Assembly: GCF_000744655.1 (NCBI RefSeq)
Contig: NZ_JQMJ01000004.1
Coordinates: forward strand, 372,001 to 436,000
Source of the DNA: Streptacidiphilus rugosus AM-16
GTDB lineage: Bacteria > Actinomycetota > Actinomycetes > Streptomycetales > Streptomycetaceae
Length of the DNA: 64,000 nucleotides
Direction: 5' to 3'
In this document: in pieces, positions 2,001 through 58,635 of the stretch
How the letters are laid out: each line of letters opens with the position of its first letter
Position numbering within the stretch: position 1 is the stretch's first letter
Position numbers and translations under genes: made by a program
The notes under the pieces: model-generated
What the model saw: only the letters and a program-made list of their open reading frames with translations
Database searches by the model: none
Told to the model about the DNA's origin: nothing

Positions 2001-4088
2001 GTGACCGATCCCGTCCCCCAGGAGTCCGGCTCTCCCGCCGAGCGCGTGGGCGAGGCGGTCCTGCACGCGCTGTTCACCCAGTCGCCGACGAGCCTGTACG
2101 TGTTCGACGGGGAGCTGCGCCTGGTGCGGGTCAACTCCGCCGCCCGGTTCTTCCGCGAGGTCGCGGACCAGGAGCTGCTCGGCCGGTCGCTGCGCCAGAT
2201 CCTGCCCGTCTTCGACGTCGCCGACGCCGGACGTCTGGAGCAGATCGCGCGGCGGGTCCTGGAGACGGGGCAACCCGTGAACGGTCTCCGGATCCGGCTG
2301 CGCGGCCGCAGCGACCCGCCGGCCGAGGTGCTGACCTCGGCGGCGCTGTTTCGCCTGCACGACGAGGACGGCGCGGTGCTGGGCGTCTGCGCCACACTCA
2401 CCGACATCACCGCGCAGGTGCGGGCCGAGGAAGGCCTGCGCCTGCTCAACGTGGCGGCCACGCGCCTCGGGTCGACGCTCGACATGTTCCGCATCGCCGC
2501 GGAGTTCTGCGACCTCGCAGTCCCGCAGTTCGCCGACTCGGTGGTCGTCGACCTGTACGACAGCGTCCTTCGCGGCCGCGCGCCCGCCGTCGACTCGGCC
2601 GAGCGTGGAGCGGCCGTGCGGCGGGCCGGACTGCTCTCGGTCACCGGGGGCCGGGCGCACGACGATCCTCCCGTCGGCGAGCTGGTCACCTACCCGGGCG
2701 ACTCGCCGCAGCACCGGGCGCTGGTCACGTGGACCACCCACCTGCTCGACGACGTCGACCCCGCCGTGTCCGGGGCGCGGTCCGTGCTCGCGGTCCCCGT
2801 TCGGGCCCGCGGGGTCGTCCTGGGCCTCGCCTGTTTCCTCCGGCGGCAGAACCCCCTGCCTTTCGACCAGGACGACCGGAGGCTGGCCGAACAGCTGACG
2901 GCCCACGCGGCCCTCTGCCTCGACAACGCCCGCCTCTACGCGCGGGAACGTTCGGCCGCCCGGGTCATGAAGGGCAGGGGCAGCCATCCGGACACGCCCG
3001 CGACGGTCGCAGTCGAGCTGGCCGGAAGCTACCGGCCGGCCGGTGACGGCGGCTCCTGGTTCGACGTGATCCCGCTCTCCAGCGCCCGGGTCGCACTCGT
3101 CGCGGGCCGCACCCCACTGGGCTCGGCCGCCGGTCCCGCGGCGATGTGCGAAGTGCGCGCGGCCGTCGAGGCGCTGTCCGACCTCGACCTGCCGCCCGAG
3201 GAGATCCTGGAACGGCTGCACGACCTGGCGGGAGGGTCGCGGCCCGACCTCGCGGACCCCGGGCGTCGCCCAGGTGACGCCGCGGGGAACGACACCGAGG
3301 CCGCGACCTGCCTCTACCTGGTCTACGACCCGGTGACCCTGACCTGCACCGCCGCGAGCGCCGGACATCCCTCCCCGGTCCTCCGGTTCCCCGACGGGAC
3401 CGTGGAGATGCTCGACGTCCCCTCCGGGCCGGCACTGGGCTGCGGGCCGCCCGGGTTCCGGGCCGTCCGGCGCACCCTGCCGGCGGCCACCACCGTGCTG
3501 ATCCACAACACCCCGCTGTCGCAGACACCCACGACGCAGGGGACCGAAGACCTGTTCGGCGAACTGCTCGGAGCATCCGACGCCTCGGGGGCCGACGACC
3601 TCCAGGCACGGTGCGACGGGCTCGCGGCCGCCCTGGCAGCCCGGCTGCCGACCCAGGACGTCCTCCTGGTGCTCGCCCGCACCCGCGTGCTCGGCGCGGA
3701 CCGCACCGCCTCATGGACGCTGCCCAACGCCCCCGAGTCCGTCTCCCGGGCACGCCGCCTCGCGACCGGCCGACTCGCCTCGTGGGGACTCGGCGGTGAA
3801 CTGGCCGAGAACACGGCCCTGGTCGTCAGCGAGCTGGTGACCAACGTCGTGCGGTACGCCGAAGGGCCCGTCCGGCTGGGACTCGTCCTGGCCGACACCC
3901 TGTTCTGCGAGGTTTCCGACGACAGCAGCACCGCCCCGCACCTGCGCCGGGCCCTGGACCAGGACGAGAACGGGCGCGGGCTCTTCATCACCGCCCAGCT
4001 GACCCAACGTTGGGGTGTGCGCAGGGACGGCCGCGGCAAGACCATCTGGACGGAGCAGCGGATCACCCCCGAGGACCGGTCCGGCTGA
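2001..4088 (+). CDS. PAS-GAF-PPM phosphatase-HATPase regulator with a degenerate phosphatase domain
   Basis: A 695-residue cytoplasmic regulator. Order: PAS fold (about 20-140), GAF (about 150-315), PPM/SpoIIE-type phosphatase fold (about 335-560), and an anti-sigma-type HATPase (about 570-690). The ATPase keeps ELVTNVVRYAE, the SDDSSTAPHLRRA motif and GRGLF, so ATP binding and partner-switching kinase activity look intact. The phosphatase does not: the metal-binding GGDW is GGSW (about 350), the usual GDVxGHG is AGRTPLGS (about 368), and the TDGL(V/I)E block is NTPLSQ (about 502). It is therefore probably a pseudophosphatase that senses through PAS/GAF and acts through the kinase domain on an anti-anti-sigma partner not in this window. 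GTG start at 2001; the ribosome site is weak and distant. Confidence 0.85.
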   Translation: MTDPVPQESGSPAERVGEAVLHALFTQSPTSLYVFDGELRLVRVNSAARFFREVADQELLGRSLRQILPVFDVADAGRLEQIARRVLETGQPVNGLRIRLRGRSDPPAEVLTSAALFRLHDEDGAVLGVCATLTDITAQVRAEEGLRLLNVAATRLGSTLDMFRIAAEFCDLAVPQFADSVVVDLYDSVLRGRAPAVDSAERGAAVRRAGLLSVTGGRAHDDPPVGELVTYPGDSPQHRALVTWTTHLLDDVDPAVSGARSVLAVPVRARGVVLGLACFLRRQNPLPFDQDDRRLAEQLTAHAALCLDNARLYARERSAARVMKGRGSHPDTPATVAVELAGSYRPAGDGGSWFDVIPLSSARVALVAGRTPLGSAAGPAAMCEVRAAVEALSDLDLPPEEILERLHDLAGGSRPDLADPGRRPGDAAGNDTEAATCLYLVYDPVTLTCTAASAGHPSPVLRFPDGTVEMLDVPSGPALGCGPPGFRAVRRTLPAATTVLIHNTPLSQTPTTQGTEDLFGELLGASDASGADDLQARCDGLAAALAARLPTQDVLLVLARTRVLGADRTASWTLPNAPESVSRARRLATGRLASWGLGGELAENTALVVSELVTNVVRYAEGPVRLGLVLADTLFCEVSDDSSTAPHLRRALDQDENGRGLFITAQLTQRWGVRRDGRGKTIWTEQRITPEDRSG

Positions 4089-27803: not shown

Positions 27804-29021
27804 CTAACCCTTCCGGGCGTCGCGACGGACCAGCCCGGCCCGTAGAACGTTGGTGGCTCCCACTGTGTCGGCGTGCGCGGTGTGGCCGCAGGACCGGCAG
27901 TGGAACCTCTCCTGTGTGGGCCGGTTCTCCTTGGCGGTGTGCCCGCATGCGGGGCACCGCCGGGAGGTGTTGCGGGGGTCCACGGCGATCACTTCCCGAC
28001 CGGCGCTTTCAGCCTTGGCGCGCAGGATCGTCAGGAACACCCCCCAACCGGCATCGTTGATCGACTTGTTCAGTCCGGCTTTGGCCGCCGCCCCGTTGCG
28101 CGGGAAGGTGCCCGGCTGGACGGGCTTGGGCGCGGGGGCCTTGACCATGTTGCGGATCTTGAGATCCTCGTGCGCGATGAAGTCGTGCTCGCGAACCAGG
28201 GTGAGGGCGGTCTTGTGGGCGTGGTCCAGACGCTGACGCCGGACCTTGCGGTGCAGGTCGGCAATGCGCTGAACGGCTCGCTGGTGGTTGCCGGTGCGCT
28301 TGTCCCGGCGGACACGAGGGAACCGGGCCAGGGCCCGCTGTGCTGCTTGGAGCTTCGCGGCGGCCTTGCGGGCGTGGCGCGGGTTGGGCACGAACTCGCC
28401 GCCCGAGTCGGCGAGGAAGTTGGCTATACCCATGTCGATGCCGACCACGGCCCCGGTCGCGGGCAGCGGTTCGGGCCGCGACTGCTCGGGGGTCAGCACG
28501 ACGAACCACTTGCGGCCCTCGCGCTTGACGGAGACCGTTTTGACCTTGCCGACCACGGCCCGGTGCTGGTTGACCTTGACGTGCCCGATGCCCTGGAGCC
28601 GGACGCGGGTGACGGGGTCGTGCGGGGTGGAGTCCCAGCGGCAGCCGTCGCCGTCCTTGGGGAAGTCCACCGTGTCGAACCAGTTCACGCCCCGGAAGCG
28701 CGGGTAGCCGGGCGTCTCACCGGACTTGACCCGGCGGAAGAACGCCGCGAACGCCTTGTCCAACCGGCGAAGCGTCGCCTGCTGCGAGGAGAACGACCAC
28801 CGGCCCTGCCGCTCCGGGTCGAACGCCCGGATCTCCTTGAGCTGCGCCGACTGCATCCCGTACTTGACGCTCGTCTTCGATGCGTGCTGGTAGGCGTCGC
28901 GCCGCTCCTGAAGGGCCCCGTTATAGAGAGAGCAGTGGTCACGCAGCATCTCGGCAAGCGCTTGCGTCTGGCCCACGGTGGGCCGCATGAGGAACTTGTA
29001 CGCACGGATCACCCGGCCCAC
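27804..29021 (-). CDS. tnpB: TnpB-family RNA-guided nuclease / OrfB transposase
   Basis: A 405-residue protein of the IS605 OrfB family. The N-terminal OrfB_IS605 part has the basic opening RAYKFLMRPTVGQTQALAEML. The RuvC nuclease is complete: first aspartate in VGIDMGIANF (about 192), glutamate in AHEDLKI (about 282), last aspartate in HADTVGATNV (about 384). Between them is the zinc finger CPACG...CRSCG (about 357-378). TnpB proteins cut DNA guided by an RNA from the element's end and help retain the element. Full length and uninterrupted, so potentially active. ATG at 29021 lies in a lower-GC stretch that differs from the neighbours, consistent with transfer. Confidence 0.92.
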   Translation of the reverse strand: MGRVIRAYKFLMRPTVGQTQALAEMLRDHCSLYNGALQERRDAYQHASKTSVKYGMQSAQLKEIRAFDPERQGRWSFSSQQATLRRLDKAFAAFFRRVKSGETPGYPRFRGVNWFDTVDFPKDGDGCRWDSTPHDPVTRVRLQGIGHVKVNQHRAVVGKVKTVSVKREGRKWFVVLTPEQSRPEPLPATGAVVGIDMGIANFLADSGGEFVPNPRHARKAAAKLQAAQRALARFPRVRRDKRTGNHQRAVQRIADLHRKVRRQRLDHAHKTALTLVREHDFIAHEDLKIRNMVKAPAPKPVQPGTFPRNGAAAKAGLNKSINDAGWGVFLTILRAKAESAGREVIAVDPRNTSRRCPACGHTAKENRPTQERFHCRSCGHTAHADTVGATNVLRAGLVRRDARKG

Positions 29022-54112: not shown

Positions 54113-54127
54113 GGGGCCGATCGGCCC
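54113..54127. promoter_or_regulatory. Perfect DosR/OsdR-like palindrome between CBS-BON and ppdK
   Basis: GGGGCC-GATC-GGCCC: the 14 bases GGGCCGATCGGCCC (54114-54127) are a perfect palindrome. It lies 63 bp upstream of ppdK and 93 bp upstream of the CBS-BON start. Confidence 0.6.
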
Positions 54128-56886: not shown

Positions 56887-58635
56887 TCAGACCTCCGTCG
56901 GCAGCGGCACCCGCCAGACCAGACGGGTGCCGTTGCCGGGCGAGGAGTCGGTCTCCAACGTGCCGCCGTGCTTGGCGGCCCGCTCCGCGAGGTTCACCAG
57001 CCCGCTGCGCCGACCGCCCTCGGGCAGGCCGACGCCGTTGTCGGCGACCGACAGCACCACCTCGGGGGCGGCGCCCCCGGTGACCTTCGCCGAGACCTCG
57101 ACGGCCTTGGCCGCCGCGTGCCGCGACGCGTTGCTCAGCGCCTCCTCCGCGGCGGCCAGCACGTCGTCGGCGATCTCAGCCGGGACGTCGGTGTCCAGCA
57201 GACCCTCCAGACGCAGCGCCGGCGTGAAACCGAAGGTGGGGACGAACCGGGAGACGACGTCCACGAGCCGCGCCCGCAGTCCGGCGGACTCCTGGGCGGA
57301 ACCGCGGGAGCGGAGTCCGAAGATGGACGTCCGGATGATCTTCACGGTCTCGTCCAGGTCCTCCACCGCCCGCCCGACCCGGTCGGCCGCCTGCGGGTGG
57401 CTGATGAAGCGCTGCGCGCTCTGCAGCGTCATACCGGTGGCGAAGATCCTCTGGATGGCGAGGTCGTGCAGGTCCCTGGCGATCCGGTCGTGGTCCTCCA
57501 GCAGGGCGAGCTGCTCGGCGTCGCTGCGGCGCGCGGCCAGCTCGAGTGCCAGGGCCGCCTGGTCGGCGAAGGACTTCAACGGCGTGACGTCGACCGCAGA
57601 GAACGGGTACAGCCCGGCGCGGCGGGCCAGCATCAGCACTCCGCGCGGACCGTCGGGGCCGGAGCCCATCGGCACGGCCACCGCGGGGCCAAGACCTTGC
57701 CAACGCGGAGGCCCGGCCGTCACCCGCGGGTCGTTGGCGATGTCGTTGCTGGTCATCGGCGTCTGCGCGGAGAAGGCCGAGCCCATGAAGGAACCCTCGA
57801 GCGGAAGCAGCAGGCCGCGGTGCGCCTCCGCGTCGACGCCCTCCGCGAGCTGGACCGCCAGACCCATGCCCTGGGCGCTGGGCAGAGCGAGTGCGATGAC
57901 GCCGAGATCGGCCTCGAGGATCTCCAGCGAGGCCTGGACCAGCTCGGCCAGGACGTCCTGCTGGGAGGCGCCGGAAAGCAGCCGACTGGTGATCTCACCG
58001 CTGGCGACCAGCCAGCGCTCGCGCAGCCTGGCGTCGCGGTAGAGACGCGCGTTGTCGATGGCCACCCCTGCGGCGACGGCGAGCGTCTGGAGCACCGACT
58101 CGTCCTCGGCGTCGAACTGGCCGCCACCGCGCTTCTCGGTCAGGTAGAGGTTGCCGAAGACCACCCCGCGCACCCGGATCGGCACGCCCACGAAGCTGTG
58201 CATCGGCGGGTGGTGGGCCGGGAAGCCGATGGACGCGGCGTGGTCGGCGATGTCGCGCAGACGCAGCGGCTCCGGGTGCCGGATCAGCTCGCCGAGGATG
58301 CCGTGGCCGGTCGGGAACGGGCCGATCGCCTCGATCTGCTCGTGTGTGAGGCCCGTGGTGAGGAACTTGGCGAGCATGCCGTCCTCGCCGATCACCCCGA
58401 GGGCGGCGTACCGGGCGTCGACCAGGCTCGCCGCGGACTCGACGATCTGCTGCAGCGCCTGGTCGAGGTCGAGTTCCCGGCCGACCGTGAGCACGGCTTC
58501 CAGCAGTGAGTGCACCCGGTCGCGGGTGCCGCGTGCGGCGTCCAGCCGGGTCTGCAGTTCACCCAGGAGCTGGTCCAGGCGCAGGTCAGGGAGCCCCAGG
58601 GCTTCCTTCCCCGCCGACGACGGTTCCTCGGGCAC
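56887..58635 (-). CDS. GAF-GAF sensor histidine kinase (DosS/DevS/OsdK type)
   Basis: A 582-residue cytoplasmic kinase. Two GAF domains (about 60-200, 215-370) with FPAHHPPMHSFVGVPIRVRG and FGNLYLTEKRGG, then a HisKA_3 dimerisation helix with the phospho-histidine in DRIARDLHDLAIQRIFATGM (about residue 389), and an HATPase with ALSNASRHAAA, SVADNGVGLPEG and GNGTRLVW. In DosS/DosT the first GAF carries haem for O2/NO/CO sensing; His141, 142 or 146 here are candidates by position, not proven. No LuxR-type response regulator is adjacent or elsewhere in the window, and no stress box was seen upstream. Confidence 0.92.
   Translation of the reverse strand: MPEEPSSAGKEALGLPDLRLDQLLGELQTRLDAARGTRDRVHSLLEAVLTVGRELDLDQALQQIVESAASLVDARYAALGVIGEDGMLAKFLTTGLTHEQIEAIGPFPTGHGILGELIRHPEPLRLRDIADHAASIGFPAHHPPMHSFVGVPIRVRGVVFGNLYLTEKRGGGQFDAEDESVLQTLAVAAGVAIDNARLYRDARLRERWLVASGEITSRLLSGASQQDVLAELVQASLEILEADLGVIALALPSAQGMGLAVQLAEGVDAEAHRGLLLPLEGSFMGSAFSAQTPMTSNDIANDPRVTAGPPRWQGLGPAVAVPMGSGPDGPRGVLMLARRAGLYPFSAVDVTPLKSFADQAALALELAARRSDAEQLALLEDHDRIARDLHDLAIQRIFATGMTLQSAQRFISHPQAADRVGRAVEDLDETVKIIRTSIFGLRSRGSAQESAGLRARLVDVVSRFVPTFGFTPALRLEGLLDTDVPAEIADDVLAAAEEALSNASRHAAAKAVEVSAKVTGGAAPEVVLSVADNGVGLPEGGRRSGLVNLAERAAKHGGTLETDSSPGNGTRLVWRVPLPTEV

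Follow-up and report, generated by a model that had tools for sequence, protein, structure and literature searches.

What a SpoIIE-type phosphatase domain does once its metal-binding aspartates are gone is the question raised by a complete gene at 2001..4088 (+) of the 64,000-nucleotide stretch of the Streptacidiphilus rugosus AM-16 genome analysed here (the window). The gene starts with GTG, encodes a protein of 695 aa and has intact orthologs in 13 other genomes. The protein contains a PAS_4 sensor domain (aa 25–141; 2073..2423, +; Pfam E 2e-18) followed by a GAF-type sensor domain (aa 142–315; 2424..2945, +), which was placed from the Pfam GAF match at 257–307 and the structural model. A long helix or linker leads from GAF to PPM (aa 290–330; 2868..2990, +; modelled helix 290–325) and carries RVMKGRGSHP in place of the LQRSLLP element of active relatives. 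The SpoIIE/PPM-fold domain (aa 331–561; 2991..3683, +), predicted to be catalytically dead, was delimited from Pfam SpoIIE (380–561; PF07228 70 bits with a cutoff of 25), the alignment and the model, and includes the switch helices alpha1/alpha2 (aa 377–409; 3129..3227, +), which are conserved at the level of active enzymes. The C-terminal part is an RsbW-like HATPase_c_2 domain (aa 575–688; 3723..4064, +; PF13581 at 575–683, 53 bits), and its motifs beside the PPM core are intact (N-box E611/N615, G1 D640, G2 G658-R659-G660-L661 and K680), as the original prediction had stated.

The four aspartate positions of the PPM centre were scored by aligning the window protein with 150 relatives. The replaced motifs GGSWFD, VAGRTPLGSA and HNTPLSQ, quoted earlier for this gene, were found in register with GGDWFD, VGDVxGHGx and YTDGLxE. 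In SpoIIE, the side-chain metal ligands are D628, D746 and D795, together with the carbonyl of G629 (PMC5468089), and these aspartates were matched by motif to R370, T504 and Q552 of the window protein. Thus, Asp 1 is lost by the change of GGD to GGS352 (3054..3056, +), Asp 2 (D628 equivalent) by GDV to GR370T (3108..3110, +), Asp 3 (D746 equivalent) by TDG to NT504P (3510..3512, +) and Asp 4 (D795 equivalent), the first D of DDxxLLL, by the change to Q552D (3654..3656, +). The fourth site had been missed by the original prediction, and the loss (4/4) is more complete than it had claimed. A mere shift of the ligands to other positions was ruled out by the alignment of the flanks, since WFD, AGHP and D553 remain in register, and the neighbouring aligned positions showed no acidic residue that might compensate. 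An AlphaFold model of the monomer, built from an alignment of 31 rows (mean pLDDT 80.8, pTM 0.54), predicted a PPM secondary structure that is intact and includes the two switch helices (378–393 and 399–412). The stretches 322–330, 412–432, 506–510 and 647–657 are of low confidence in this model, and its relative placement of the domains is unreliable. Catalytic death of this PPM domain is a prediction well supported by these sequence comparisons.

The loss of metal ligands is, by the alignment, not peculiar to the window protein and is found in an orthogroup of 14 members and in several neighbouring clades. A search of 395 genomes of the family returned 13 relatives at 540 bits or more, followed by a gap to matches of 506 bits or less at no more than 48% identity. 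The 13 orthologs are 50–59% identical to the window protein by the search tool (48–57% by tblastn), form one clan with it in the tree (SH-aLRT 99) and together with it span five genus groups of the family; a search of 395 genomes sampled from the class gave, at E 1e-137 or better, no hits beyond the family. Asp 1, Asp 3 and Asp 4 are missing in 14 of 14 members, Asp 2 is kept in 10 of the 13 orthologs, and the window protein, in which Asp 2 is gone as well, is the most eroded of the group. The dead phosphatase has apparently been kept by evolution, because almost all of its losses recur in relatives from 13 other species. The pseudophosphatase core beside an intact HATPase, as originally proposed, is thus borne out across the orthogroup. 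The accompanying label of sensor-kinase would be right only in the sense of an RsbW/SpoIIAB-type serine kinase/anti-sigma module, as the Pfam scan found no HisKA/DHp phosphoacceptor domain in the protein.

The nearest neighbours in the tree show intermediate four-Asp states, namely DDND (L153), DDTD (L151), DDSD (L155), DDTH (L061) and xDxD (L062–L064). These states form a ladder from DDND through DDTD/DDSD and DDTH to xDxx of the orthogroup and SRTQ of the window protein, along which the D746 equivalent seems to have been lost first and the D628 equivalent last. Parsimony on a quick tree required 2 changes between the kept and lost states. Further partly degenerate clades lie nearby (L045/L166/L082, L054/L122/L070/L120, L069/L112 and L072/L089/L097), and degeneration of the PPM aspartates, read from the aligned residues, is more widespread in these bacteria than this orthogroup. 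The finding of DDDD in 95 of the 151 aligned rows is no census of its frequency, because the rows were sampled with a bias towards relatives of a degenerate query protein.

The S. rugosus genome (about 9.0 Mb in 4 contigs) contains 47 SpoIIE matches and 27 STAS_2 matches. The SpoIIE match of the window protein scored 73 bits against 115–190 for most of the others. Scoring of the 35 distinct complete SpoIIE domains in which all four sites could be read, with L197 counted once as a repeat of L028, gave DDDD for 33, DSDD for one and SRTQ for the window protein alone. The DSDD domain, which has lost one aspartate, is L190 (G000:C3 608273-608851). Two more SpoIIE domains, L194 and L195 (G000:C4 ~6565583-6566285 and 1379510-1380054), are split between reading frames, which may reflect a frameshift, a sequencing error or a real disruption.

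Regional conservation was expressed as the ratio of identity in the orthogroup to that in active proteins at matched HATPase divergence. This ratio was lowered in the motif-2 loop (0.27), motif 8 (0.72) and the linker (0.75), and was unchanged in the switch helices (0.97), the PPM core (0.96) and the N-box (1.0), G1 (1.1) and G2 (1.02) of the HATPase. Only the metal loops, phosphate motif and linker show relaxation. Furthermore, 13 PPM positions carry residues that the orthogroup conserves and that active proteins do not share, and six of these (E384, A387, A391, S393, R405 and H407) fall in the switch-helix region at 372–410, an enrichment with a hypergeometric p of about 0.01 for a region that was chosen after viewing the list. 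By these comparisons, the window protein appears to be a PPM pseudophosphatase, having the fold without the metal ligands and being kept under selection.

The loss of ligands together with the retention of the switch helices and the HATPase fits a relay in which the sensor acts on the kinase through the linking helix and the switch helices. We consider it fairly probable that the PPM domain between the PAS-GAF sensor and the RsbW-type HATPase, which looks functional, is folded though catalytically dead, and that it relays signals from the one to the other. Signals sensed by PAS and GAF would pass down the GAF-PPM helix to the switch helices which, no longer placing a metal, would alter the dimer or domain arrangement and thereby gate the HATPase. 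The HATPase would then phosphorylate a STAS anti-anti-sigma factor and/or hold a SigB-type sigma factor. In SpoIIE and RsbU, the active site receives signals through the switch helices (PMC5468089), which also contact the docking loops (PMC11418112); the switch helices of the window protein would transmit to the HATPase instead. The absence of phosphatase activity, the relay, the kinase activity and its partner are what we infer for this protein; the coupling may differ or be weaker, since the LQRSLLP element before the PPM domain is lost.

On this relay reading, a two-way kinase/phosphatase is predicted to have become a kinase that works in one direction only, while dephosphorylation would fall to other phosphatases acting in trans, and the altered partner-switch balance suggested by the original prediction is plausible. 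Such phosphatases would be plentiful, judging from the 45 RsbW, 17 RsbV and 44 RsbU/P homologs reported for S. coelicolor (PMC8346170). Two orthologs adjoin an intact stand-alone PAS-SpoIIE phosphatase gene (L171_g11 and L177_g9), which lies upstream on the same strand in G214 and divergently in G218. Homologs of this phosphatase are present in 13 of the 14 orthogroup genomes, and genes of this type being so numerous, the two adjacencies are suggestive only.

The retained PPM fold and core would also suit a substrate trap or decoy, in which the dead domain binds phosphorylated STAS proteins and shields them from active phosphatases; PHLPP2 has been proposed to keep substrate binding after the loss of catalysis (PMC12002173). 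We regard this as unlikely, because the docking loops described for SpoIIE and RsbU (PMC11418112) are among the most variable parts of the orthogroup (identity of 0.27 in the switch loop and 0.32 in alpha3/4), although they are variable in active enzymes too, and because motif 8 and the motif-2 loop by the phosphate site are unconserved.

The identity of whole domains within the orthogroup was 0.53 for PPM, 0.54 for PAS, 0.58 for GAF and 0.70 for HATPase, so that PPM and PAS are conserved least; active pairs with a comparable HATPase identity, by contrast, gave a higher value for PPM (0.61) than for GAF (0.46). Such values would be expected if the PPM domain had become inert ballast, serving dimerisation or spacing with no signal passing through it and leaving the protein as a sensor-HATPase only. 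This is quite improbable, given that constraint on the switch helices and core remains as strong as in active enzymes and that dN/dS is well below 1. The PPM dN/dS was 0.34, 0.38, 0.24 and 0.35 in four close ortholog pairs and about 0.13–0.25 in six active or near-active pairs, so that the domain evolves somewhat faster in the orthogroup than in active relatives.

A reduced or altered phosphatase, using other ligands or a single metal, could draw on D355, H456 and D553, which remain in the window protein, and on the motif-2 aspartate present in most orthologs, and single-metal binding is known from TAB1 and PHLPP2 (PMC12002173). These two proteins are, however, themselves described as inactive, and with all four aspartates gone and no compensation seen at adjacent aligned positions, retained activity of this kind is very unlikely. 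A decaying pseudogene, as might be read from the lost catalytic residues and from the window protein being the most eroded of its group, was rejected as scarcely credible in view of intact ORFs of about 670–720 aa in 14 genomes, the PPM dN/dS of 0.24–0.38 in four ortholog pairs and the fully conserved HATPase.

Known systems resemble the window protein in part. It shares its domain order, PPM fold, switch helices and HATPase motifs with active PAS-GAF-SpoIIE-HATPase proteins from Streptomyces and its relatives, such as the same-genome paralog L008/L051; those proteins keep DDDD, GDVxGHG, TDG and LQRSLLP, all of which are replaced in the window protein. Rv1364c of Mycobacterium tuberculosis (PAS-RsbU-RsbW-RsbV) combines an active phosphatase with a STAS domain at its C-terminus. 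Its RsbU-RsbW structure (3KE6) is the best structural match in the PDB, and Rv1364c is the best match also in sequence over PPM plus HATPase; unlike it, the window protein has a GAF domain and lacks the STAS domain and the metal ligands. Bacillus RsbU, RsbP and SpoIIE likewise have the PPM fold with allosteric switch helices, but are catalytically active and, unlike the window protein, are polypeptides separate from their kinase. PPM pseudophosphatases are known in eukaryotes, where TAB1, PHLPP2 and fungal Cyr1 (PMC12002173) similarly show a PPM fold that has outlasted the loss of its ligands, in unrelated architectures that, unlike the window protein, have no joined GHKL kinase. In the open-licence literature searched, no bacterial PPM/SpoIIE pseudophosphatase was described.

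According to one proposal (PMC5468089), the PPM switch can persist as a regulatory module after catalysis has been lost, and the graded series of losses offers a natural test of that idea. Tentatively, and with somewhat less confidence than in the relay itself, we propose that a lineage of Streptomycetaceae lost the PPM ligands stepwise and kept the domain as a purely allosteric relay gating a fused RsbW-type kinase, which would make it a bacterial example of the intermediate pseudoenzyme stage proposed for PPM evolution. Proteins with a SpoIIE domain are usually assumed from the name to be phosphatases, and one whole clade of them is probably not; genomes of this kind encode dozens of SpoIIE-domain proteins, and their sigma-factor networks may therefore have been drawn with wrong connections.

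Next to the gene, the window contains no recognisable STAS, anti-sigma or sigma gene, and the ortholog flanks inspected showed no shared neighbours or conserved partner gene. The gene is located at the margin of an OsdR/DevR-like dormancy island. The window from 267 to 63743 mostly resembles an OsdR/DevR-type dormancy or redox island, for which a described system (PMC5069765) served as comparison, and encodes Rv2632c-like, DUF1918, OsmC, baeRF, Usp, CBS/BON and Hsp20 proteins, an NiFe hydrogenase, PPDK and a GAF histidine kinase. OsdR-like boxes gave 12 matches at 13/16 or better in the window, 10 of them in intergenic DNA, which makes up 15% of it; the best were at 54113 (15/16) and 17178 (14/16). 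The simple count of GGGNCNNNNGNCCC was no higher than chance, and neither was the count of GGGACNNNNGTCCC. The best match upstream of the gene was 10/16, equal to the background median of 10, and none of the 13 orthologs had an upstream box above 12/16. OsdR control of the gene was rejected on this basis, the boxes being present in the island but not upstream of the gene or its orthologs.

The GAF histidine kinase gene of the window lies at 56887-58635. The two closest orthologs (G229 and G055) have a similar GAF histidine kinase gene and a CBS gene within about 9 kb, a proximity that may be a coincidence. A 405-aa ORF at window 27804-29021 (-) resembles, by eye, a transposon TnpB/OrfB protein.
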